A stretch of DNA of 28,984 bases from a virus. Numbering within the stretch: the first letter of the stretch is position 1; every line of letters begins with the position of its first letter. Location of the stretch: positions 1 through 28,984 of IMG/VR virus record IMGVR_UViG_3300021440_000095. The stretch is one strand, 5' to 3'. This document shows positions 150 to 27,599 of this stretch, one piece after another. The notes beneath the pieces were generated by a model. That model did no database searches, was not told the origin of the DNA, and saw nothing but the letters and a program-made list of their open reading frames with translations. Both the position numbers and the translations under genes were made by a program.

Positions 150-187
150 AGAACAAATGTAGAACTTTTACAGAACAAACCAAGAAC
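150..187 (+). promoter_or_regulatory. Four AGAAC boxes at exact 11-bp spacing
   Basis: AGAAC occurs at 150-154, 161-165, 172-176 and 183-187, each separated by six unrelated bases (AAATGT, TTTTAC, AAACCA). The 11-bp period places all four boxes on the same DNA face. The last box ends 2 bp before the -35 hexamer at 190. This is directly visible; that it binds an activator or repressor is inference. Confidence 0.6.
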
Positions 188-189
188 AT

Positions 190-218
190 TTGGTGATTAG
201 CAGATTTTATGTTATACT
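190..218 (+). promoter_or_regulatory. Sigma70-type promoter
   Basis: TTGGTG at 190-195 and TATACT at 213-218 are separated by 17 bp, the ideal sigma70 spacing. A TG two bases before the -10 hexamer (TGTTATACT) resembles an extended -10. Transcription would start near 225, giving a ~250-nt leader before the first gene at 479. It is the best promoter in the gene-free region and sits immediately after the phased AGAAC boxes. Confidence 0.6.
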
Positions 219-352: not shown

Positions 353-461
353 TATATCCCACAATTCTCACCTGATATCACCAACTTACAAAAAATATAA
401 AAATATAAAAATATTTTGAACTTTTGTATTAGAAGGTGAGTCTAAGAGGTTATTTGATAAC

Positions 462-2917: not shown

Positions 2918-4258
2918 ATGTCTATAGTCTTTGGTGGTGGTCCTAGGTACCGTAGACAGCTTAAAAGAGTCAACAATTTTAAAGTTGGGGCTGAATTTAG
3001 AAGCACTACCGAGTTCTTTAAACTTAGGAATAATATATTTTGGGATACTAATAATTATCTAAGTATCCCAAAAGTTTCCATACCTGTTACTACTTTTACT
3101 CCTACAGTTACCATCACCGCTAATAACAATATTAGCATACCACTCCTAAGTGTCCCTGTTACTGTATTTACTCCTACTGTATTTATCAGTTCTGATAATA
3201 CAATCAATATACCTTTATTAAATGTACCTGTTACTGTATTCACTCCTAGTGTAGTTAGTAATAACGATATACAGGTACCTCTCTTAAATGTCCCTGTTAC
3301 TACCTTTACTCCTACTGTAGTAAACAATAATAACATCTTCATACCTCTCCTAAATGTTCCTGTTACTACCTTTACTCCTACAGTATCCATAAGTTCTGGT
3401 AACACTATTAATGTACCTCTCTTAAATGTCCCTGTTACTACCTTTACTCCTACTGTAGTAAACAATAATAATGTACAGATACCACTATTAAGCATTCCAG
3501 TAACTACGTTTACTCCTACTGTAGTTAACAATAATAATGTTTCTGTACCTTTATTAAATGTTCCGGTAACCATTTTTACTCCTACTGTAGTTAACAATAA
3601 TAATGTTTCTGTACCTTTATTATCAGTACCTGTTAATGTTTTTACTCCTACTGTAGTTAATAATAATAATGTTTCTGTACCTTTATTAAATGTACCTGTT
3701 ACTGTATTTACCCCTAGTGTAGTAAACAATAATAACATACAAGTACCACTTCTTAACGTTCCTGTAACAGTTAGAGCACCTACAGTAACCATAAGTACTA
3801 ATATTAATGTACCCCTCCTAAATGTACCTGTTAATGTTTTTACTCCAACTGTAGTAAATAACATTAACATTGCTGTACCAAAGCTTATTGTACCAGTTAA
3901 TGTATTTAACCCTACAGTAATCATAGGTACTAATATACAGATACCACTATTGAGTGTACCAGTTAATGTTTTTACTCCTAGTGTAGTTAATAATATAAAC
4001 ATATCTGTACCCTTATTAAGTGTACCAGTTAATGTATTTACTCCAACTGTAGTTAATAATGTAAACATTAGTATACCGCTTTTGAGTGTTCCAGTTAATG
4101 TTTTCACTCCTACAGTTTCAGTAATATCTTTAGGTGATTTTGGTACAATAACCACCAACATAAGAGTATTATCCATTGCTCCTGTACCTCCTCATGTAGT
4201 AATAGGCTCTCCTAGAGCTATTAACATATCCCATAAAACTCTAGCAATAGCACTATAA
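2918..4258 (+). CDS. Repeat-built fibre-like protein (16 x ~22 residues)
   Basis: 446 residues. A ~48-residue basic N-terminal segment (GGGPRYRRQLKRVNNF) precedes about sixteen tandem units of 22 residues (24 in two) with consensus IxVPLLNVPVTVFTPTVVNNNN, running to about residue 404. A ~40-residue C-terminal end (HVVIGSPRAINISHKTLAIAL) is non-repetitive. The alternating hydrophobic pattern with a PLL corner, a TPTV strand and an Asn-rich turn suggests a stacked beta solenoid or fibrous shaft, one turn per repeat. No signal peptide. AAGGAG Shine-Dalgarno sequence. Its stop overlaps the next gene (TAATG). Probably a virion fibre or decoration filament; the exact function is not recognised. A long antisense reading frame here is an artefact of the repeats. 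Confidence 0.7.
   Translation: MSIVFGGGPRYRRQLKRVNNFKVGAEFRSTTEFFKLRNNIFWDTNNYLSIPKVSIPVTTFTPTVTITANNNISIPLLSVPVTVFTPTVFISSDNTINIPLLNVPVTVFTPSVVSNNDIQVPLLNVPVTTFTPTVVNNNNIFIPLLNVPVTTFTPTVSISSGNTINVPLLNVPVTTFTPTVVNNNNVQIPLLSIPVTTFTPTVVNNNNVSVPLLNVPVTIFTPTVVNNNNVSVPLLSVPVNVFTPTVVNNNNVSVPLLNVPVTVFTPSVVNNNNIQVPLLNVPVTVRAPTVTISTNINVPLLNVPVNVFTPTVVNNINIAVPKLIVPVNVFNPTVIIGTNIQIPLLSVPVNVFTPSVVNNINISVPLLSVPVNVFTPTVVNNVNISIPLLSVPVNVFTPTVSVISLGDFGTITTNIRVLSIAPVPPHVVIGSPRAINISHKTLAIAL
3062..4128 (+). repeat. ~66-bp tandem coding repeats
   Basis: About sixteen degenerate copies of a 66-bp unit (72 bp in two copies with an SSDNT/SSGNT insert), each encoding PLL-N/S-VPV-T/N-VFTPTV-V-NNNN. The best-conserved DNA core is close to ACTCCTACTGTAGT, followed by AAYAATAATAAT. 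Central units (about 3530-3680) are nearly identical at DNA level whereas terminal units have diverged, a pattern expected from recent expansion in the middle. Confidence 0.85.
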
Positions 4259-5341: not shown

Positions 5342-6679
5342 ATGGAAAATGTAATAACTATACCTTATATGTTTGAGCCTAGGGTCTATCAAAAAGAACT
5401 TATGGCTGCTTTAGACTCAGGTTACAAAAGAGCTATTGCTGTATATCATAGAAGAGCAGGGAAAGATAAAACTATGTTCAACATAATTGTAAAGAAAGCT
5501 TTACAAAGAGTTGGGGTATATTATTACTTTTTCCCTGAATTTGCTCAAGGAAGAAGAGTAATATGGGATGGTATTGATGGCTCAGGATTTAAATTCTTAG
5601 ATCACATACCTCCACAACTAATACAATCTAAGAATAGCACTGACATGAAAGTAGTATTAACTAACGGCAGTGTTATTCAAATTATGGGTACTGATAAGTT
5701 TGACAAAGTTCGAGGTTCTAATCCTGTGGGTTGTGTGTTCTCGGAATTTGCTTTTCAGAATCCAAAGGCTTGGAATATTGTAAGACCTATCCTTATAGAA
5801 AATAAAGGTTGGGCTATATTCAATAGTTCTGTTAACGGTAAGAATCATTTTTATGATCTCTATAACATGGCTAAATCTAATAAAGATTGGTTTGTTCAGA
5901 ACTTAGATATTACAATGACCTTAGATGAGAATGGTAATAGATATGTTTCTGATGATGTAGTTAACTCAGAAAGAGAAGCTGGTATGTCTGAGGAAATGAT
6001 TCAAGCAGAATTCTATAATAACTGGACTTCCAACTCTCAAGGTTTTTATTATTTATCAATACTAGAAAAACTAGATCATGATAAAAAGATAACCAACATC
6101 CCATATGACCCTGGAGTAGCTGTAGAGACTTGGTGGGATATAGGTGTAGGAGATTACACTTGTATATGGTTTACTCAAACCTATGGGAAAGAAATTAAGG
6201 TTATAGATTACTTTGCAGCCAATAATAGAGGCTTAGATTTCTATGCCAAAACCCTACAGAATAAAAATTATGTATATCGTTCCCACAATTTCCCTCATGA
6301 TATGGCAGCTACAGAGTTTGGTACAGGTCGTACTCGTATGGAAGTAGCAGAAGAATTATTTAAAGGCACTCGTATAAATATAATCCAAAAATTATCTAGA
6401 GAAGATGGTATTAATGCTGTTAGAATGATACTGCCTCAATGTATATTTGATAAGAAGGCATGTGCTCAAGGCTTGGATGGATTAAGGAATTACCGTAAAG
6501 AGTGGGACGATAAGAACCAAGTATTTAGAAATACACCTGTTCATGACTTTGCATCAGACCCAGCAGATGCTTTTAGAACTATGGCTGTAGGTATATCTAT
6601 GCCTAGATCAAGAAGCTTTAAAAGTGAATTCATGAAATCTTCCCTCAATGTTAAACGTAAGAATTGGAAAGTAGCTTAA
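5342..6679 (+). CDS. Terminase large subunit
   Basis: 445 residues, the DNA-packaging motor: an N-terminal ATPase translocates DNA into the prohead and a C-terminal nuclease cuts concatemers. Visible motifs are an adenine-binding region with PRVYQKEL near 13-20, a Walker A variant HRRAGKDKT at 36-44, a Walker B-like GCVFSEF at 130-136 with catalytic Glu135, an SSVNGKNHFYDL coupling segment near 162-173, and a nuclease domain beginning WWDIGVGDYT near 260 and ending DFASDPADAFR near 405. Length is somewhat short but complete. The start has no Shine-Dalgarno sequence and lies 6 bp after the holin candidate. The stop overlaps the portal ATG (TAATG), as expected for packaging partners. Confidence 0.95.
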   Translation: MENVITIPYMFEPRVYQKELMAALDSGYKRAIAVYHRRAGKDKTMFNIIVKKALQRVGVYYYFFPEFAQGRRVIWDGIDGSGFKFLDHIPPQLIQSKNSTDMKVVLTNGSVIQIMGTDKFDKVRGSNPVGCVFSEFAFQNPKAWNIVRPILIENKGWAIFNSSVNGKNHFYDLYNMAKSNKDWFVQNLDITMTLDENGNRYVSDDVVNSEREAGMSEEMIQAEFYNNWTSNSQGFYYLSILEKLDHDKKITNIPYDPGVAVETWWDIGVGDYTCIWFTQTYGKEIKVIDYFAANNRGLDFYAKTLQNKNYVYRSHNFPHDMAATEFGTGRTRMEVAEELFKGTRINIIQKLSREDGINAVRMILPQCIFDKKACAQGLDGLRNYRKEWDDKNQVFRNTPVHDFASDPADAFRTMAVGISMPRSRSFKSEFMKSSLNVKRKNWKVA

Positions 6680-8712
6680 TGAGCGAGAAAATATTAAATG
6701 ATAACAGGCTAGCAGAGAATAATTGGGCACGATACTTTTCTGCTTTAACAAGAGGTCACTCTTCTTACCAACAAAGAGCCAAGCTATGTGAAGAGTTTTA
6801 TTTAGGTGGTGGCAGACAATGGAGCGATGCTGATAAGTTAGCTTTAGAGGAAGCAGGTAAACCTTGGTTAGAGGAAAATATAATCTTCTCAACAGTAAAT
6901 ACTGTATTAGGCTATCAAACTCAATCTAGAATGGATATTTCTTATAAGCCTAGAGAAGTAGATGACCAAGATATATCTGATATACTAGCTAAGATTAGTA
7001 TGTATCTTGTAGATCAAAATAAATATCCTTGGAAAGAGAGTCAAGTATTTGCTGATGGTCTCATTCAACAAAGAGGTTATTTTGATGTAAAGATGAACTT
7101 CAATGAGAATGTCTATGGAGATGTTGAGATAACAGTGCTAGACCCACTAAATGTTATTCCAGACCCAGACTCTTCATCATACGACCCAGATGACTGGAGT
7201 GATGTAATAATTACTTCATGGATGTCTCACGATGATATTAAAGAAACTTATGGATTAGGTAAGTGGAGACAAATTGAAAGTAAGATGTATAGGGAGGCTG
7301 ATTTTGGTACTGGTACTTTAGAAGAGGAAAGGAACAAATTCGGTACTTTAAATAATCAATCTTCTTTCTACTTAGATGAAACAGATACTCCTCATTCTCG
7401 TATTATAAATAGACAATACTGGAAGATTCATAATAGAGAGTTTTATCTAGATACTAAAACAGGTGACCTATACCCTACAGCAGATAAAGATAAACCTTTT
7501 ACTAAAAGGAAAATTGCTAAAGAGAATGGTTGGGAAATAATTAAGAGAGTCACTAAGAGAATTAGATGGACTGTATCTACTAAAGAAGTAGTTCTATTTG
7601 ACTCTTGGAGCCCTTATTCTCATTTTACAGTAGTTCCTTTCTTTCCTTATTTTAGAAGAGGTGTTACCCTAGGTATGGTAGATAACCTTATTAAGACTCA
7701 AGAGATGCTTAATAAAGTGCAATCTCAAATATTACATGTAGTAAATACAACTGCCAACTCTGGATGGATTTTAGATGAGTCTTCTTTAGCTAATATGGAG
7801 ACTGAGGATTTAGAAGAGAGAGGTGGGGAGACAGGACTGGTATTAGAAGTAAAACAAGGTAGAGAAAGACCACAAAAAATTGAACCAAATCAGATTCCAA
7901 ATGGTCTAAAGGACTTAGTTAGTACAGGTGTAGAGTTGATGAGGATGATTTCAGGAGTATCTGAAACTTTCCAAGGTGGTAAAGGTCCAGAAGTTTCTGG
8001 GGTTGCTATACAATCTAGAGTACATCAATCTGCAATTCAACTAGCTACTCCTATAGATAATCTCTTTAGAACTAGAAACATGATAGCAGATAGGCTCCTT
8101 GAGCTGATTAGGTCTTTTATGACTCAAGAAAGAACTTTCATGATTACTGGGCCTAATAAAGATCGTAACTCTCCTGCTACTTCCGTTACAACTCCTGTAA
8201 CCATCAACCAAGAAAATCCAGATGACCCATCTAGACTTATAAACGATATTACAGTTGGTAAGTATGATGTTGTTATCGCTGATGTACCTACTCAAATAAC
8301 TTTCCAAAATGCTCAATTTGCTCAAGCTATAGAATTAAGAAAGTATGGAGTTATGGTTCCAGATGATGAAATGGTTATGATGAGTACCCTTTCACGTAAG
8401 AATGATATAGCTAAAAAACTTTCAGGAGAACTCTCTCCAGAACAACAAGCCTCAGCTAAAGAGAGGGCAGATTTAGAGTTAGAGAACTTAAGAAAGGTTG
8501 TAGAAGAACTAGAATCAAAAGCTAAGGTAGATGAATCTAAAACCCTCAAACAACTAGCTGATATTGCAGCTATGATTTTTGAAAATCCTAAACTGGCCCC
8601 TATTATGGATTCACTACAATCTTTAATAGATTCAAAAGAAAAACAAGAAACAGAGAACACTTCAGAACAAGAAGCCCCTCAACAAGAACGTCCTTCTATA
8701 GGGTCCTTTTAA
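6679..8712 (+). CDS. Portal protein (P22-like)
   Basis: 677 residues from ATG 6679, which overlaps the terminase stop; an upstream in-frame TTG is less likely. The dodecameric portal forms the DNA channel at one capsid vertex and docks the terminase. Family features: an N-terminal 'FYLGGGRQWSDADKLALEEAGKPWLEEN' type segment, NTVLGYQTQSRMDI near 80-95, VLDPLNVIPDPDS near 160, and the long central helix region TLGMVDNLIKTQEMLNKVQSQI. A final ~90 residues are charged helical coil (ELENLRKVVEELESKAKVDES) ending in a Gln/Glu-rich tail, consistent with the P22-like portal barrel, though family tails vary. It is the usual partner of N4-gp56-type capsids. Confidence 0.92.
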   Translation: MSEKILNDNRLAENNWARYFSALTRGHSSYQQRAKLCEEFYLGGGRQWSDADKLALEEAGKPWLEENIIFSTVNTVLGYQTQSRMDISYKPREVDDQDISDILAKISMYLVDQNKYPWKESQVFADGLIQQRGYFDVKMNFNENVYGDVEITVLDPLNVIPDPDSSSYDPDDWSDVIITSWMSHDDIKETYGLGKWRQIESKMYREADFGTGTLEEERNKFGTLNNQSSFYLDETDTPHSRIINRQYWKIHNREFYLDTKTGDLYPTADKDKPFTKRKIAKENGWEIIKRVTKRIRWTVSTKEVVLFDSWSPYSHFTVVPFFPYFRRGVTLGMVDNLIKTQEMLNKVQSQILHVVNTTANSGWILDESSLANMETEDLEERGGETGLVLEVKQGRERPQKIEPNQIPNGLKDLVSTGVELMRMISGVSETFQGGKGPEVSGVAIQSRVHQSAIQLATPIDNLFRTRNMIADRLLELIRSFMTQERTFMITGPNKDRNSPATSVTTPVTINQENPDDPSRLINDITVGKYDVVIADVPTQITFQNAQFAQAIELRKYGVMVPDDEMVMMSTLSRKNDIAKKLSGELSPEQQASAKERADLELENLRKVVEELESKAKVDESKTLKQLADIAAMIFENPKLAPIMDSLQSLIDSKEKQETENTSEQEAPQQERPSIGSF

Positions 8713-11600: not shown

Positions 11601-14600
11601 GTAAATACTCTGGGTCTGAGCTTTAGCTCACTTGGCTGCACTTAAAAAATTCTCTTAATTGCGGGAAACTCTTTAGAGCTAATAATACTAAACTTAAGTT
11701 GAGAAACATTAAGTGGCGAATGGTAATGCGTTCGGTATAGTAAAAAGTTATTAGATTAGACAATCCGCAGGTAATACACCAAGATGGGTGTAAACTTCAA
11801 CGATCAAATATGTAGGGTAGATAGCTATCCGAAAAGGAGAACAATAGCTTATGAGTAAATTATATAGTTGTACTATATGTAATAAAAAGAAACAAACTAA
11901 CGAATTCTATATATATAAATCTGGACCTAAATCTGGTAAAATATCTGATTACAGGTGTAAATTATGTCTTTTAAAAATTAAGAAAGAAGTTTACGATGAG
12001 AATCCTATAGGTTTTAATGAAGCTGCAAGATTAAGAAAAGAAAATAAACCAGAAGTATATAGAGGTCATTGGGCTAAATACAGAAATAATAATCTAGATG
12101 TTTGTAGGCAGAGGGCTAATGAAAGCTCTAAGAGGTACTATGAAAGATATCCTGAGAAGCTTAAGGCTAAATCTTCAAAAAGAAGAGCTTCTAAAATGAA
12201 TAGAGTACCTTCATGGATGACTAAAGAAGAAGAGTCTAAGATTAGGTCTGTGTATAAAATGTGTAGAGCAATATCTAAAAAGACTGGAATACATCATCAT
12301 GTAGACCATATAATACCTCTACAAGGAAGATTAGTTTCGGGGCTACACACTATAAGTAACCTACAAATTATTACAAAAGAACAAAATTTAATTAAATCTA
12401 ATAAGTTAATTGAAGATATGATCTAGTCTTACTAGAAATAGTAAGTTAATAAAACACACGTGAACTTTGGAAACAAGCTCGTGATATGGCTTTCATCAAT
12501 AAATTTATTGGCGGAAGCTCTGATGTTATTCAAAGAATTACTGAATTAACTAAAACAGAAAAAGGTGAGATGGTTATTATGCACCTATTAGCTGACTTGG
12601 TTGAAGACGGTATTACTGGGGATAACCAACGTGAAGGTTTTGAAGAAGAAATGAAGACCTATAACGATAAGATTACTATTGATCTTATTTCTCATGGTGT
12701 TCGTGAAAAAGGTAAATTAGCTGCTCAAAAAACTGTTGTATCTTTCCGTGAAAACGCAAAAGAAAGATTAGCTTTTTGGTTGGCTAACCGTATGGACCAG
12801 TTGGCGTTCTTAACTCTATCTGGTATCTCATATGCATTTAACAATGACGGTTCCCCAAGAACTTCTGGAGCATTTGCTAACTTAGCCTTTGCTGCGGATG
12901 TTTCAGCACCTACTACTAATCGTGGTCGTAGATGGGATGGGGTTAATAGTGTACTAGTTCCTAGTAATACTGCTGGTATGTTGGCTACAGATACTCTTAC
13001 TTATAAAGCTATCGTAGATATTACAGTGTATGCTAAAACTCACTACATTAAACCGTTAAACTATGGTGGTAAAGAGTACTACTGTGCATTCATTCGTCCT
13101 GAAGGTTTAGCACAATTAAAGAAAGACCCGGATAAAATTGATTGTCCCCTAGCAGCGTGAGCTGTTTTGAATAACTCTTCTAATTGCTGGAACACCCTTA
13201 GAGCCTCCAAGCTACAACGCAATCTGAAAAGATAAACGTGACATGCTTAAAAATTGGTAGGATTGGGCAATCAGCAGCTAAGATTCGTATAGATATATAT
13301 ATACGTTTAAAGTTCAACGACTATCCCTTATGGGAGTAGAGCATAAGCTCGAAATGGAGAGAAACTTATGATAGAGATTACTAGAATATGTTCTAGATGC
13401 AATTTAGAAAAACCTACTGATAGCTTTACTAGAAATAAAACTAAAAAGTTTGGCTTAGATTCTTGTTGCAAATTATGTAAATCTAGAGAAGATAAAGAGT
13501 ACAGAAGGTTAAATGCTCATAAACTTAAAGAGTATTTTAAAGAGTACCATTTACTGAATAAAGAACATAAAGTAAGAGTTGCTTGTAAATGGCAAAAAGA
13601 CAATAAAGAACAAGCTAACTCAAATAAAAGTACTAATAGAGCTAAAAGAATAAAAAGATTTCCTAGCTGGTTAACTTTAGATCAGTTAAATGATATAAAA
13701 TCTTTTTATAAAAAAGCAGAAGAGCTAACTAAATCTACAGGTATATTACATCATGTAGATCACATAATCCCTCTTAATGGTAAATTAGTATCTGGACTGC
13801 ATGTTCCTAGTAACTTACAAGTAATTCCTTGGAATGAAAACCTATCAAAAAATAATAAGTTTGTGATATAGTCTGCTCTTAATAGAAATATTAAGTTAAC
13901 AAAAGGTATCAAAGAGCAGTTGTAACTGGTGCAGATCGTGGTAAAGATAACCCTTTCTTCACTGGCGGTATTATGACTGTAGATGGCATAAATTACTGTG
14001 CCGCTGCTTAGTGATAAGCAGGCAATAACCCCTCTAATTCGGTGAAACTCTCTCTGAGACAATACCGAGCCAAGCTATATTTTGAACTTTTTTAGTTTTT
14101 CATGGTCATAGATATAGAAGGTGTAACGACTAGATTTTAAATCGTACTTACTTAGTTTAGTGAGGAAATGGGGGGCTACTGATGGAATGTAATATTTGTA
14201 AATCAGAAAATGTTAAGTATAAAAACTCTAAAAAAGAATTTGCTATTGGTAAAGCTCTTTGCAGAAAATGCTATAATGTTTTATTTAAACAGACAAAGGA
14301 TTATAAAGAATATAAAAGCAACTACGACTTGAATAGATATGAGCGAGACAAAGAAGCTATTATTAATAAAAGTAATAATTATTATCGAAATAATAAAGAA
14401 AAATGCTCTTTAGTAAAAAAGATTTATTACAGTAATAATAGGTACAAGTTTCTTGCTTCATCCAGAGGCTATAAAATTAAAAAATTAAATGCCACACCTA
14501 AATGGCTTAGTAGTAAGCATAGGGAAGAAATAAATTTAATTTATAAAAAATCTCAAGAGTTGTCACTAGCTACAGGTATTAATTATGAAGTAGATCATAT

Positions 14601-15974
14601 AATACCTATAAAAAGCAAATTTGTCTGCGGATTACATGTTCCTTGGAACTTACAAATACTCACCTCTTACGAGAATAGAAGTAAGAGTAATAAATTAGTA
14701 GAAGATATAGTCTAAACTTTATAGTGATATAAAGAGAGATAGGAAATCTCGTAATATATTTGTGTATTTCACGAGCATCGCTTAGTTTATAACACTAAAG
14801 GTGCTGCATCTGGTTCTAAATGGGGAGCTACTGGAACTGTCGACGGCTCTCGTATGCTGATTTGTGGTTCACAAGCTTTAGGTTTCGCTGATTTAGGCGC
14901 ACCTGAGTGGAGTGAAAAATGGTTCGAATATGAATCATCTCCTGGTATTAACATCGATTGGGAAATTTCCCTAGTCGCTTAATATAGTAATATATTAATG
15001 AAAAGTTCTTAAATTGCTGGAATAACTTGAAGGCATTTAAACTACAACGTAATTTGAAAAAGTAAGCGTGAATGTTTAAAAATTAAATGTTATAAGTCAA
15101 TCAGCAGCTAATCCCCTAATCCAATAGGCACGGGGAATGTTCAACGATTAAATAGGATTAATAATAGCCATGCGCTTAAATAAAGAAACAAAGAATCTAC
15201 TAATAGCTATGAGTTTTGGAGACGGGTATATAAACCCTAAAGGATATCTTCATCTTCTCCACTCTCAGAAACAAAAAGATTATTTAGAATATAAATATAA
15301 CTTAATAAAAGATTTATGTAAGTCTGGTATCAAATCTACTAAAGTTAAAGGTCATAAAAATACTCCATATTATTATAGAGTATATCTTACTACAAAAATC
15401 AATAAATTTCTTAAAGCTTTAAGAAAAAGTTTATATATAAATAATAAGAAGTTAATCTCTAGAAGTTTATTGAATAGAGTAGATGATAGAGGTTTAGCTA
15501 TATGGTGGATGGATGACGGTTGCAGATCACCTCAATATAGGGAAGGTAAAGTACACTCAGTTAATTATATATTTTCTACTTATTTAAGTAAAGAAGATAA
15601 TAAAATTATAGCTGATTGGTTATTAGATAAGTATAATATAAAAGTTAACATTACTCCTAGGGGTAAATCTGGTTTATATTGTATTACTTTTCATACTAAA
15701 GAGGGTAGAAAGTTTAGCGATATAGTTAGACCGTATATTATACCATCATTATTATATAAAATTAATCCTGTAGGAGAGGTAGGAAACTCTCTGAAACAAG
15801 AACTACCCTAATAGGGTAATGATATAATCTAGTCTGTATAGTGATATACAGAGAGTAAGGATACTCGTAATATAAACGAAAATGTTTGGCTTCTTAAAAC
15901 CACAATTCTATAGCATCTACGATAAATCTGTTGAAGATTTTGGTGTATTGGCTATAGACCACGCTATCGCTTAA
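11554..15974 (+). CDS. Major capsid protein (N4-gp56/DUF4043 type), split by four group I introns
   Basis: Five exons (11554-~11600, ~12461-13133, 13907-13989, 14763-14958, 15879-15974) join in frame to a ~364-residue protein. Collinear family features are MSLTNFAALTADQK at the start, ITELTKTEKGE, DGITGDNQREG, AQKTVVSFRENAKERLAFWL, MDQLAFLTLSGISY, FAADVSAPT, YAKTHYIKPL, DNPFFTGG, VDGIVFHEHRLVYNTKGAA, GSQALGFADLGAPEW, GFLKPQF and DFGVLAIDHAIA at the end. Every one is where the family has it, and no residues are missing across junctions 2-4. It forms the HK97-fold capsid shell. Each unspliced exon runs into a stop soon after its intron begins, so splicing is obligatory. AAAGGA Shine-Dalgarno sequence. 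Only exon 1/2 joining is uncertain (364 or 366 residues). Confidence 0.9.
11601..12460 (+). ncRNA. Group I intron 1 in capsid gene, with HNH ORF
   Basis: About 860 nt. Core elements include TTAATTGCGGGAAACTC (11656-11672, P3/P4 region), CAATCCGCAGG (11761-11771, P6/P7 side) and CTTCAACGATCAAAT (P7 strand, near 11795). Near the 3' end come GATATGATCTAGTCT, a P9 hairpin CTTACTA-GAAA-TAGTAAG with a GAAA tetraloop, and terminal G at 12460. GAGC-TTTA-GCTC at about 11618-11629 looks like P2. The HNH ORF sits between the two P7/P8 halves, as in other phage IA introns. The 5' splice pairing is unclear: CUAGU pairs with UCUGG except at the splice U, AGUGU pairs well with GCACU (11637-11641), and CAGAU pairs well with GUCUG, but the last two give no in-frame G-ending solution. 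Confidence 0.8.
11851..12426 (+). CDS. HNH homing endonuclease of intron 1
   Basis: 191 residues. An N-terminal zinc ribbon is visible as C7xxC10 and C36xxC39, followed by a long basic helical linker (many Arg/Lys/Tyr, residues 70-135) that should wrap DNA. The C-terminal HNH module has HHHVDHIIPLQG (148-159), SGLH and SNLQ, then KEQNLIKSN. Such enzymes cut intronless alleles of the host gene and drive intron homing by repair. AAAGGAG lies 11834-11840 before ATG 11851, spacing rather long. The stop overlaps the conserved 3' core of the intron (GATATGATCTAGTC), so ORF and ribozyme share bases. Related to the intron 2 and intron 3 proteins in layout and HNH motif but clearly divergent in the linker. 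Confidence 0.88.
   Translation: MSKLYSCTICNKKKQTNEFYIYKSGPKSGKISDYRCKLCLLKIKKEVYDENPIGFNEAARLRKENKPEVYRGHWAKYRNNNLDVCRQRANESSKRYYERYPEKLKAKSSKRRASKMNRVPSWMTKEEESKIRSVYKMCRAISKKTGIHHHVDHIIPLQGRLVSGLHTISNLQIITKEQNLIKSNKLIEDMI
12461..13133 (+). CDS. Major capsid exon 2
   Basis: Encodes ELWKQARDMAFINKFIGG through AQLKKDPD, the main body of the capsid protein. The 5' boundary may instead be 12457. The 3' boundary follows CCGGAT: the GGAU pairs with GUCC at 13144-13147, giving the expected U.G at the splice site. The open frame continues 27 bp into the intron (stop at 13158-13160), so an automatic annotation would report an ORF of 224 residues from 12486. Confidence 0.85.
13134..13906 (+). ncRNA. 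Group I intron 2 in capsid gene, with HNH ORF
   Basis: 773 nt. P1: GGAU (13130-13133) with GUCC (13144-13147), splice U opposite G. P10: UUGAU (13138-13142) with AUCAA of exon 3 (13908-13912), 5 bp, which fixes both splice sites. P2: CAGC-GTGA-GCTG near 13155-13166. Core: TCTAATTGCTGGAA (near 13180), CAATCAGCAGCTAAG (near 13269) and GTTCAACGACTATCC (near 13311). 3' part: GATATAGTCTG, P9 hairpin CTTAATA-GAAA-TATTAAG, terminal GG. The core sequence closely resembles intron 4, while the 3' end resembles intron 1. Confidence 0.9.
13368..13871 (+). CDS. HNH homing endonuclease of intron 2
   Basis: 167 residues, the shortest of the three HNH intron proteins. Zinc-ribbon cysteines C8/C11 and C34/C37; basic helical linker containing repeated KEY/KEH motifs; HNH module HHVDHIIPLNG (128-138), SGLHVPSNLQVIPW, NENLSKNN. 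The PW after SNLQVI is typical of this phage intron HNH group. TGGAGAG precedes the ATG by about nine bases, so it can be translated from unspliced RNA. The C-terminal codons and stop lie in the conserved GATATAGTCT core. It presumably cuts intron-minus capsid alleles near the exon 2/3 junction; that target is inferred. Confidence 0.88.
   Translation: MIEITRICSRCNLEKPTDSFTRNKTKKFGLDSCCKLCKSREDKEYRRLNAHKLKEYFKEYHLLNKEHKVRVACKWQKDNKEQANSNKSTNRAKRIKRFPSWLTLDQLNDIKSFYKKAEELTKSTGILHHVDHIIPLNGKLVSGLHVPSNLQVIPWNENLSKNNKFVI
13907..13989 (+). CDS. Major capsid exon 3 (83-nt mini-exon)
   Basis: Encodes YQRAVVTGADRGKDNPFF then TGGIMTVDGI, with the conserved NP(L/F)FTG and VDG landmarks. It starts right after the intron-terminal GG and ends at GGCAT, where GGCAU pairs with GUGCC (13998-14002). 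Far too short to be noticed as a gene by itself. Confidence 0.85.
13990..14762 (+). ncRNA. Group I intron 3 in capsid gene, with HNH ORF
   Basis: 773 nt. P1: GGCAU (13985-13989) with GUGCC (13998-14002), splice U opposite G. P10: UAC (13994-13996) with GUA of exon 4 (14764-14766). P2: CTGCTTA-GTGA-TAAGCAG near 14002-14019. Core: CTCTAATTCGGTGAAACTCTC and AATACCGAGCC, then GTGTAACGACTAGA. 3' part: GATATAGTCTAA, hairpin CTTTATA-GTGA-TATAAAG, second hairpin GAGAT...ATCTC, then GTAATATATTTG ending in G. The core is the most divergent of the four; the 3' end is closely like intron 4. Confidence 0.88.
14182..14715 (+). CDS. HNH homing endonuclease of intron 3
   Basis: 177 residues. Zinc-ribbon cysteines C3/C6 and C27/C30 at the extreme N-terminus, a Tyr/Asn/Lys-rich DNA-binding linker, then the HNH module: here YEVDHIIPIKSKF replaces the HHVDHIIPL of its two relatives, followed by CGLHVPWNLQ and ENRSKSN. 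The VDH histidine and the NLQ asparagine are kept, so activity is plausible. The upstream GAGGAAATGGGGGGC gives an ambiguous ribosome-binding site. The terminal LVEDIV and stop are encoded by the conserved 3' core of the intron. Not an obvious duplicate of the other two: the linker has little resemblance. Confidence 0.85.
   Translation: MECNICKSENVKYKNSKKEFAIGKALCRKCYNVLFKQTKDYKEYKSNYDLNRYERDKEAIINKSNNYYRNNKEKCSLVKKIYYSNNRYKFLASSRGYKIKKLNATPKWLSSKHREEINLIYKKSQELSLATGINYEVDHIIPIKSKFVCGLHVPWNLQILTSYENRSKSNKLVEDIV
14763..14958 (+). CDS. Major capsid exon 4
   Basis: Completes the split Ile codon (AT|T) and encodes VFHEHRLVYNTKGAA, GSKWGATGTVDGSRM, GSQALGFADLGAPEW and SPGINID. No start codon belongs to it. 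Ends at ATCGAT; CGAU pairs with GUCG at 14974-14977. Confidence 0.85.
14959..15878 (+). ncRNA. Group I intron 4 in capsid gene, with LAGLIDADG ORF
   Basis: 920 nt. P1: CGAU (14955-14958) with GUCG (14974-14977), splice U opposite G, extended inside the intron by UGGG (14959-14962) with CCUA (14970-14973). P2: TTAATATA/TATATTAA near 14978-14998. Core: AAATTGCTGGAATAAC (near 15013), ACTACAACGTAATTTGAAAA, TCAATCAGCAGCTAA and TGTTCAACGATTAAAT (near 15139). 3' part: TAATCTAGTCT, hairpin CTGTATA-GTGA-TATACAG, hairpin GAGTA...TACTC, then GTAATATAAACG with terminal G at 15878. Confidence 0.88.
15170..15811 (+). CDS. LAGLIDADG homing endonuclease of intron 4
   Basis: 213 residues with two LAGLIDADG-type helices: LLIAMSFGDGYI at 10-21 (acidic residue Asp18) and RGLAIWWMDDGC at 107-118 (Asp115/116), each ending in the Gly-Asp-Gly-like turn that brings a catalytic acid to the domain interface. 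Between and after them come the expected beta strands (KGYLHLLHSQKQKDYLEY; VNYIFSTYLSKEDNKI; GLYCITFHTKEG). It belongs to the two-motif LAGLIDADG_2-like set, so it could act as a monomer. No zinc ribbon and no relation to the HNH proteins. AGGATT is a weak, distant ribosome-binding site. Presumably cuts intron-minus capsid alleles near exon 4/5. Confidence 0.88.
   Translation: MRLNKETKNLLIAMSFGDGYINPKGYLHLLHSQKQKDYLEYKYNLIKDLCKSGIKSTKVKGHKNTPYYYRVYLTTKINKFLKALRKSLYINNKKLISRSLLNRVDDRGLAIWWMDDGCRSPQYREGKVHSVNYIFSTYLSKEDNKIIADWLLDKYNIKVNITPRGKSGLYCITFHTKEGRKFSDIVRPYIIPSLLYKINPVGEVGNSLKQELP
15879..15974 (+). CDS. Major capsid exon 5
   Basis: Encodes KMFGFLKPQFYSIYDKSVED then FGVLAIDHAIA and a TAA stop, the conserved C-terminus of the family. 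The joined sequence GINID-KMFGFLKPQF has exactly the expected spacing, supporting the intron 4 splice sites. Confidence 0.85.
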   Translation, partial: KMFGFLKPQFYSIYDKSVEDFGVLAIDHAIA

Positions 15975-24334: not shown

Positions 24335-26199
24335 TGAGTTTACAGGATATTGATGCTTTTGTTCAAGTCCCTAATGTAGATGGTTGGTTAAATACTCTCA
24401 ATGATTATGCCTCTAATGCTGTAAAGAGCGCTAACTTAGTCGCTAGTGGTTTAGGTAACCTATCCTTAAATACACTAGAACCTGCTATCACTTTTGAAGG
24501 TATACCCTCTACAGCTACTATAGGCTCTCCCACTAAACCTGTTATACCTTCTTTTCCTACTATCTCTAGGACTGTACCTACAGCTCCCAACATATCTTCT
24601 CCTACCTTTGATACTAATGCAATTACTCCTCCAGTATTTTCAGCAGTATCTCCAGATATAAATTTACCCTCTCCACCTAATCCTCTTACAATATCCGCTC
24701 CAGTAAAAGAGTTTACTCTTAATCTTAATCAAGATTTTCCTGTAAGCCCTGATATTGTTTTACCAGATGTACCTACATTTGTATCACTGAATATACCATC
24801 TGCTGTACCTATTAACCTACCTACATTCTCTTTAGATTTCCCCACTTCTAATGGAATAACAGTTCCCGGATTAACTTTTAGTTTTATAGAAAACCCTTAC
24901 TCTTCTTTATTGTTGGATAAAGTAAAGAGTGAACTTCTTTCTAGATTATCAGGTGGTACAGGTCTTAATCCTATAGTAGAACAAGCTATTTGGGATAGGG
25001 GTAGAGATAGAGAGTCTAGAGCATCTATCTTAGCTATAAATTCTTTATTAACTGATGAAGCTTCTAGAGGATTTACTAGACCTACAGGTACAGCTTATTC
25101 AGCTTTAGAACAACTTACTCAAGAGACTCAATCTAAGATCATAGAGTTATCTAGAGAGGTTATGATTAAACAAGCTGAACTAGAACAAGAGAATATTAAA
25201 ACCTCTATTCAGCAGACCATCGCTCTAGAAGATATTCTTATTAGAGAGCATAACGTAGTTTTACAAAGAGCTTTTGAAGTAGCTAAATATACTCAGGATG
25301 TTGCTATAGAACTATTCAAGGTTCAAGTAAGTAGATACACAATGGAGGTGGAAGCTTATAAAGCTTTCTCTGCAAGTTACTCTGCAAAGGTTCAAGCTGA
25401 ACTTTCTAAGATAGAGATATTTAAAGCTCAAATAGAAGCTGAAAAACTTAAAGGTGATATTAATGAGCAGAATGTAAGATTATATCTAGCTCAGATTGAA
25501 GGCGTCAAAAGTAATGTCGAGATATATAAAGCTTTAGTATCCACAGTATCTGAAAAGCTTAGAGCTGAAGGATTAAAGATTGAAGCTTATAAAGCTGATG
25601 TAGATGCTTACTCTGCTACTATAAGAGCTAAATCAGATGAGTTTAGTATGTATTCTGAACAAGTTAAAGGTGAATTAGCTAAGACTGATGTATTTGAATC
25701 TCAGGTTAAAGCGTTTACTTCTAGAGTTCAAGCTTACGCAGCTCAGGCGGATGTTCAAAATAATAAAGCTAAAGTAGAAGTGGATATTCAAGAGCTAAAT
25801 ATTAAAAAGTATGAAGCATCCTTAGAAGCATTTATTAAGCAAGTTCAAGCAGACCAACAACTCTACCAAAGTGCTGTAGATATTTATAAAGGTGAAGCTG
25901 CTATGTATTCTGCTAATATAGATTTAGCTAGAGCTAGAGCAGATATAGACTTAAAGAACTCTGAGAATGTTATTCTACAAAATAAATATAGAGCCGACAT
26001 AGGTATACAAAACGCTCAAATAACCTTAGAAAGTATTAAGAATGCTTATAACGCTATGATTACAGCTAGACAATCTGCTGGTAGTATTTATCAATCCATC
26101 GCTACTTCAGCCTTAAGCTCTATAAATGTAAGTGCAAGCCTTGGTGGTTCTGTGTCTATGCAAGCTTCTGAATCTCATAACTATAACACCTCTATATAA
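24334..26199 (+). CDS. Long coiled-coil virion protein
   Basis: 621 residues. The N-terminal ~200 are Pro/Ser/Thr-rich and extended (IGSPTKPVIPSFPTISR; PSPPNPLTISAPVKEF). From ~205 to 600 it is continuous helix with a loose repeat 'VEAYKA..S.YSA.VQAE..K...FKAQIEAEK', typical of long coiled coils or internal helical bundles. The conserved-looking junction LDKVKSELLSRLSGGTGLNPI and RGRDRESRASI begins the helical part. Phages of this type carry such a protein in the tail or internal core; I know no proven function. AGGAG Shine-Dalgarno sequence seven bases before ATG. It precedes the ejection-type genes, so roles in tail needle, fibre shaft or internal core are all possible. Confidence 0.6.
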   Translation: MSLQDIDAFVQVPNVDGWLNTLNDYASNAVKSANLVASGLGNLSLNTLEPAITFEGIPSTATIGSPTKPVIPSFPTISRTVPTAPNISSPTFDTNAITPPVFSAVSPDINLPSPPNPLTISAPVKEFTLNLNQDFPVSPDIVLPDVPTFVSLNIPSAVPINLPTFSLDFPTSNGITVPGLTFSFIENPYSSLLLDKVKSELLSRLSGGTGLNPIVEQAIWDRGRDRESRASILAINSLLTDEASRGFTRPTGTAYSALEQLTQETQSKIIELSREVMIKQAELEQENIKTSIQQTIALEDILIREHNVVLQRAFEVAKYTQDVAIELFKVQVSRYTMEVEAYKAFSASYSAKVQAELSKIEIFKAQIEAEKLKGDINEQNVRLYLAQIEGVKSNVEIYKALVSTVSEKLRAEGLKIEAYKADVDAYSATIRAKSDEFSMYSEQVKGELAKTDVFESQVKAFTSRVQAYAAQADVQNNKAKVEVDIQELNIKKYEASLEAFIKQVQADQQLYQSAVDIYKGEAAMYSANIDLARARADIDLKNSENVILQNKYRADIGIQNAQITLESIKNAYNAMITARQSAGSIYQSIATSALSSINVSASLGGSVSMQASESHNYNTSI

Positions 26200-26201
26200 C
26201 T

Positions 26202-27599
26202 ATGGCTACATACGATAATAAACCAAATAAATTTAGACAGTTTTTTGCTAATGCTGATGCTACTTCTGCTAGAGGTGGTATGAGACCTCCAATAGAAAAT
26301 GCTGCGCCTTATCAACCTATAAATGAAGTAGCTAGTAAGTTAGGGGATGTAGGTAATAACGTTGTTTCTAGATTCAATAATAACGCAGAAAGATATAAGA
26401 AAATAGGTCTTAAAGGCGTTTTAAATGAGGCTGGTGCCCCGATAACTTCCGCGGTATACTCTAGTAACGATGCCATAGTAAATGGAGCCTCTAATGCCCT
26501 TAAAGGAGCTACAACACTCGCAAGTAATATTGCAGACACAGCTAACTCTCTTTATAATGGAACCGATGGAATTGCAGCTCAAAGGGCACAAGCAGCTAAA
26601 GGTTCTGCTGGAGCTACTAATGTAGTATCTAACCCTACAGCTAACTCAGGAACAATTAAAAATGAATCACCTACCACACCTTCTCGCATTGGCGCCATTA
26701 ATCCCTCTCCTAATACTGCTACTGCTCCCAATACATTAGCTCCCAAACCTTCTGTTACCACTCCATCTGAGATAACCTACGGTAATGCTACTCCTTCTCA
26801 GATAGCTCAAAGAACAGGATTTCAATTAGAGCAGCCAGAGACTCCGCAACTGGGTACCCCTATAAGAGGCTCTGGTGGACAGATTACCTCATACTCAGAA
26901 CCTGGATATTCAGATCAGAAACCTGCTGGACAAAGGAACACTGTAAGCTTTGATAATGGTGTAGGAGGTACTGCCTCTATTACTTCTAATAAAGTATTCA
27001 GTAAAGACCAAATGGACTCTTTGAATAAAACTATAGCCTTCAATAATAAACCTGAGACTATACAACACTTTGCAGAACAAGCTGCTATCACACAAGCAAG
27101 AATAGATAAATATAAAGGTAATCCTGAAAGAGATCAACTAAAACAAAATCTTTATGATGCTTACAGAAGAGGTGATAAAACAGGTATAGCTATTAATAAA
27201 GATTTGTTGATGGCTTTAGATAAAAATAATATTGATTCTTCTCAAGTAGCAGCTAGTAAAGAAATAGGATTAGCTAACAATGAAAGGCAGACTCTCGGTT
27301 TAGCTAATGAGGCTCAGTTCAAGGATAATAAAGCTCAACTAGATGCTCATAATAACGGCATTAAAAATATAATGGATTTACAGAAAGAAGGAGCAGAGCC
27401 ATTAACTTTATTTGGGGCATATACCTCAGCCTCCGGTCAGTTACCAGATTTAAGAACAACAGATGTTCTCTTAGGTAACAATCAAGATTATAAAGATGCT
27501 GTTAAGTCAGGTTCTAGAGAAAAAGTACAAAAGGTATTTGAAGATCTAGGTTTACCAGAAACATATGTCAGACGAGCTTTAGGTGAAATACCACAATAA
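26202..27599 (+). CDS. Internal virion/ejection-type protein (tentative)
   Basis: 465 residues, Asn/Ala/Gly/Thr-rich. The N-terminus (NKPNKFRQFFANADATSARG) is basic; residues 40-150 are Ala-rich helix; 130-240 is a Pro/Thr/Asn-rich flexible segment (SPTTPSRIGAINPSPNTAT). The last ~200 residues are charged helix (KGNPERDQLKQNLYDAYRRGDKTG). Similar architecture is common among phage internal proteins encoded just before the giant ejection protein. No catalytic motif is seen. Start 2 bp after the preceding stop. Confidence 0.5.
   Translation: MATYDNKPNKFRQFFANADATSARGGMRPPIENAAPYQPINEVASKLGDVGNNVVSRFNNNAERYKKIGLKGVLNEAGAPITSAVYSSNDAIVNGASNALKGATTLASNIADTANSLYNGTDGIAAQRAQAAKGSAGATNVVSNPTANSGTIKNESPTTPSRIGAINPSPNTATAPNTLAPKPSVTTPSEITYGNATPSQIAQRTGFQLEQPETPQLGTPIRGSGGQITSYSEPGYSDQKPAGQRNTVSFDNGVGGTASITSNKVFSKDQMDSLNKTIAFNNKPETIQHFAEQAAITQARIDKYKGNPERDQLKQNLYDAYRRGDKTGIAINKDLLMALDKNNIDSSQVAASKEIGLANNERQTLGLANEAQFKDNKAQLDAHNNGIKNIMDLQKEGAEPLTLFGAYTSASGQLPDLRTTDVLLGNNQDYKDAVKSGSREKVQKVFEDLGLPETYVRRALGEIPQ

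Follow-up and report, generated by a model that had tools for sequence, protein, structure and literature searches.

The stretch of DNA analyzed here (the window), a virus record of 28,984 bases, opens with an intergenic region, after which all genes run rightward in the order small HNH, small terminase, several small genes, large terminase, portal, capsid, and tail. The first gene (479 to 727, + strand) encodes an 82-aa HNH protein (HNH_3) that is conserved beside terminase genes, and the genes for the small terminase subunit TerS (727 to 1197, +) and the large subunit TerL (5342 to 6679, +) follow. Relatives found with TerL as the query and then aligned are 67 to 78% identical to the window in TerL, and the closest relative having this intergenic region is only ∼75% identical. 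TerS is only 42 to 54% identical between the window and its relatives, and no relative was found in IMG/VR with TerS alone as the query. At the nucleotide level, the first 8 kb had no match in phage records, nor was there a match in Rfam. Two of the relatives are whole genomes, MW202615 (65 kb, circular) and G005 (66.9 kb, with ends overlapping by ∼127 bases), and both have rightward late genes and leftward early genes. Because of this layout, we read the first 480 bases of the window as belonging to the single divergent region, which in MW202615 and G005 coincides with the switch in GC skew. MW202615 also has a COOH.NH2 ligase-type gene, and this gene and the layout are reminiscent of phiEco32; the window is a fragment of a phage whose genes are arranged in a phiEco32-like manner.

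Within the divergent region, the pentamer AGAAC occurs four times on the + strand (150 to 154, 161 to 165, 172 to 176, and 183 to 187) at a spacing of exactly 11 bp, as had been described in the original prediction; on the other strand, the array (150 to 187) reads GTTC-N7-GTTC-N7-GTTC-N7-GTTC. No other pentamer of the window recurs fourfold at a constant spacing (6 to 40 bp tested), AGAAC itself is arranged in this way only here, and such a pattern was not reproduced by shuffling: equally spaced fourfold pentamers arose in none of 30 third-order simulations of the window and in none of 3000 first-order simulations of its first 480 bp. The spacers had been taken to be unrelated, but the array consists of two 22-bp tandem units (149 to 170 and 171 to 192, +) with 17 of 22 positions identical, and all five differences between the units sit in the spacers, sparing AGAAC (chance 0.03). 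A/T runs lie 3′ of each AGAAC. The idea that the four copies occupy one helical face holds approximately, in that the 11-bp period is near one turn but not exactly one turn.

The array stops, as predicted, 2 bp before a sigma70-like promoter (190 to 218, +) composed of TTGGTG (190 to 195), a 17-bp spacer, and TATACT (213 to 218). The sequence may be a sigma70 promoter: both elements and the spacer are present, the −10 matches at five of six positions, and a TG precedes it (extended −10), but the −35 matches at only three of six positions, and the promoter scores below the threshold of the promoter scanner (consensus TTGACA, 16 to 18 bp, TATAAT). Two relatives (L006 and L012) have a rightward sigma70-like promoter roughly in the window's place without the array, which is nearly the arrangement that the original prediction had named as speaking against the array as a late-gene switch. 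We note that most relatives carry leftward TTGAC-type sigma70 promoters upstream, and that tandem leftward promoters of the TTGACA type on the − strand of L107 (∼79 to 324) and L008 (∼357 to 465) are likely early promoters.

The sigma70-like promoter had been regarded as the only good one before the gene row, but a promoter of another type lies nearer the first gene. At 416 to 446 (+), 63 bp before the first start codon, the sequence TTGAACT-N17-GTCTAAG combines AAC in the −35, a GT(C) core in the −10, and a spacing of ∼16 to 17, as expected of an ECF-type promoter; the −35 was compared with the RpoE element GGAACTT and the ECF AAC box (PMC8103513). Among 10 upstream regions, 7 contain the motif TTGAACT-N16/17-GTCNA, with nine occurrences in all, whereas shuffled sequences gave 0.007 on average and never more than 1. 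An additional match at 7880 was not counted because it lies inside the conserved portal coding sequence. In the window, MW202615, and L014, the ECF-type motif is located 59 to 63 bp before the start codon, those of the relatives having been placed by alignment, and the L109/L275 group has an additional gene separating the motif from the HNH gene. G005 and L008 have, in place of the ECF-type motif, TAAA-N15-GCCGATA, which we take to be the FliA promoter form and which was detected at three sites in two regions but not in shuffles; in L008, it occupies the corresponding place, 59 bp before the start codon. The upstream region of L012 contains neither the ECF-type nor the FliA-type motif.

In addition, G005 has a gene for a FliA/sigma28 homologue (E = 2e-57 to solved FliA) at 25489 to 26235 (+) of its contig, IMGVR_UViG_3300045994_000147. 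FliA-type promoters precede both the late operon of G005 and this gene, but the one preceding the sigma gene falls within a different coding frame. The search for sigma genes found none in the ECF-type relatives, including MW202615 (complete) and the 63-kb contig of L275, and none in G011 or the L271 contig. It must be assumed that the ECF-type promoter of the window would be read either by a host RpoE-type sigma or by a phage sigma too diverged to detect. Judging from the conservation and position of the motif, the late genes would most likely be started by this alternative-sigma promoter at 416 to 446.

Phages of the phiEco32 type are known to read their late genes with a phage sigma (PMC8948821). 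The window and its relatives share with phiEco32 and 7-11 the podovirus layout of rightward late and leftward early genes, a late operon that would be read from alternative-sigma promoters, and a late consensus that differs among related phages. They differ from them in the motif itself, which here is ECF-type TTGAACT-N16/17-GTCTAA or FliA-type TAAA-N15-GCCGATA; neither the phiEco32 consensus tAATGTAtA nor the 7-11 consensus GTAAtg-16-aCTA is present in the window. A further difference is that phiEco32 and 7-11 have a phage-encoded sigma, whereas none was found in the ECF-type relatives; G005 has its FliA homologue, and the early genes of the window phage lie outside the window. The motifs and the one sigma gene suggest that, within one lineage, the promoter before the packaging and structural genes may have switched sigma class in place. 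Most members, the window among them, would have an ECF-type promoter there and the others a FliA-type one, with a FliA homologue encoded by one of the latter; in the window phage, a private operator array would be an optional addition. We consider this account to have an even chance of being correct. The region around the array would then matter more than the array: across these phages the late promoter would stay in position while its sigma class changes, and this natural series, with a matching FliA-like sigma in one member, opens changes of late-gene control in phages to testing.

A conserved bipartite element is also present in the divergent region. Its first half is a G run, CCAAGGGGGGTAGTTTAG (241 to 258, +; family form AAGGGGGGTNGGTT), a possible cos-like packaging site, and its second half is TTATATATCCAGACCCACA (286 to 304, +; family form YTATATRNTC...CCCACAG). 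The G run is followed by TATATRNTC...CCCACA at a fixed distance of 41 to 42 bp in the window, L004, L107, L008, L012, and MW202615. Further CCCACAG repeats accompany the element, and a second, weaker CCCACA copy, CCCACAATTCTCACC (358 to 372, +), was recognized partly by eye. The combination expected of a cos or packaging site, a conserved cis element with repeats beside the TerS and HNH genes, was found at 241 to 304 and not at the array. By analogy, the G-run element and the neighboring HNH and TerS genes would resemble a cos region such as that of HK97-type phages, where these two genes adjoin a conserved G-rich cis element with repeats, but the likeness is positional only, and the ends of the window contig are assembly ends. 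A separate sequence, TATATAAGGA, lies ∼120 to 200 bp upstream of the G run in L004, L006, L008, and L107 and takes the form TATATATGGA in L014; it is absent from the window.

The array itself was not found in the intergenic regions of MW202615 and the 18 relative contigs, even when three copies with two mismatches were accepted, and the few weak matches in the relatives all lie outside the intergenic region. An intact four-copy array was found in 77 IMG/VR stretches, none of which belongs to the window's family when searched with the window proteins; the best match among them is a distant terminase with 37% identity (L068). Recurrence of the array in relatives, proposed as a check of the original prediction, was thus not observed, and among the sampled relatives the array is private to the window's lineage. 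The fourfold AGAAC-N6 array shows no overall excess in IMG/VR (77, versus 72 for the reversed word), and just those arrays whose spacers vary carried information. When intragenic arrays of this variable-spacer kind from other phages were inspected, 19 of the 20 tested were located in DnaD-like or O-like initiator genes, and the reversed-word control arrays were in initiator or primosomal genes in three of four tested cases. Initiator genes with AGAAC at 11-bp steps include those of L029, L030, L034, L056, L061, L089, L093, L098, and others, and CAAGA shows the same pattern inside phage initiator genes. The AGAAC arrays in the initiator genes of many phages are probably origin iterons, such genes being a common location for the origin repeats of phages. 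Intergenic arrays occur in mixed contexts, some of them upstream of terminase genes, with no clear excess over the control. A late switch cannot be recognized from phased pentamers alone.

We propose that a DNA-binding protein recognizes the array as a cluster of half-sites that is private to this lineage. Placed immediately before the −35 of an early-type sigma70 promoter (190 to 218), in the sole intergenic region separating leftward early from rightward late genes, the array would modulate that promoter, and the late genes would start not at the array but from the alternative-sigma promoter at 416 to 446, ∼200 bp downstream. This explanation as a whole, with the array as an operator rather than a late switch, is tentative, and we place it slightly below an even chance. 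An operator is favored because the array is nonrandom, the mismatches between its units spare AGAAC, and it ends 2 bp before the −35; a late switch is disfavored because relatives without the array share the alternative-sigma promoter nearer the first gene. As the closest relative is only ∼75% identical in TerL, a conserved function of the array may nevertheless have turned over fast. The upstream sigma70 promoter at 190 to 218 may be inactive.

It is also conceivable, though unlikely, that no specific protein is involved and that the array is a tandem duplication of 22 bp, now degenerate, within A-rich DNA, whose effect, if any, would be that of a bent or UP-like sequence. The identity of the two units, the A/T runs that follow each AGAAC, and the absence of the array in relatives are consistent with such an origin; yet all five mismatches avoid the AGAAC words, and a single duplication leaves unexplained why the AGAAC pair inside each unit is phased as well. 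Rather unlikely, in our view, is that the four AGAAC are replication-origin iterons, that is, sites bound by a replication initiator of the phage in the divergent region, where replication could plausibly start. The intragenic arrays described above suggest that 11-bp phased pentamers with variable spacers, whether AGAAC or another word, are a usual form of phage iterons, and the divergent region is where the GC skew switches in MW202615 and G005. However, initiator iterons lie inside the initiator gene, whereas the array of the window lies between genes, next to a promoter and to the HNH and terminase genes; the relatives encode a primase/helicase (phrog_239), with no match to the DnaD-like family phrog_2514; and skew tracks gene direction, which makes it weak evidence.

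Read on the − strand, the array contains three overlapping copies of the direct repeat GTTC-N7-GTTC, which match the Caulobacter LexA box GTTCN7GTTC exactly in all eight bases and in spacing (PMC9578287, PMC4211646). A host alphaproteobacterial LexA could thus control the adjacent promoter upon DNA damage, and both the position of the array just upstream of the −35 and the number of such pairs in the window (three, versus 0.7 expected on both strands) point in this direction. Nevertheless, we consider this improbable: it would need an alphaproteobacterial host with such a LexA, and no relative was found in any genome of the species collection; GAAC-N7-GAAC was absent from the corresponding region of the relatives where it was looked for and occurs genome-wide in approximately chance numbers; and four half-sites in a row exceed a normal operator. 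Similarly improbable is that the array serves in packaging, as a TerS binding site upstream of the cos-like G-run element and the HNH-TerS genes. The array is 55 bp from the bipartite element that adjoins these genes, an HNH protein encoded beside terminase helps cos cleavage in HK97 (PMC9410871), and in L042, L065, L095, and L097 the intergenic array is followed, on the same strand, by a gene for a large terminase. Against this, the relatives keep the G-run element and TerS without the array, albeit with a TerS of low identity, and a control array (L189) also has a terminase gene downstream, which weakens the association. Finally, a late-gene switch bound by an undescribed phage activator, as originally predicted, is very improbable, as the array does lie directly upstream of a promoter pointing at the late genes but is private to this contig and has downstream of it a conserved alternative-sigma promoter, the type that relatives of the same layout have there.

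Two further features of the rightward gene row were observed. The match of the capsid open reading frame (12486 to 13160) to its family covers only approximately the first two thirds of the latter, and downstream lie HNH open reading frames at 13368 and 14182 and a LAGLIDADG open reading frame at 15170, with another HNH open reading frame at 11851 (region 11851 to 15811); homing-endonuclease elements or introns may interrupt the capsid gene, although none were found by Rfam. In addition, positions 2918 to 4258 encode a 446-aa protein that consists largely of repeats such as VPLLNVPVTVFTPTVVNNNN, corresponding to DNA repeats of ∼66 bp.
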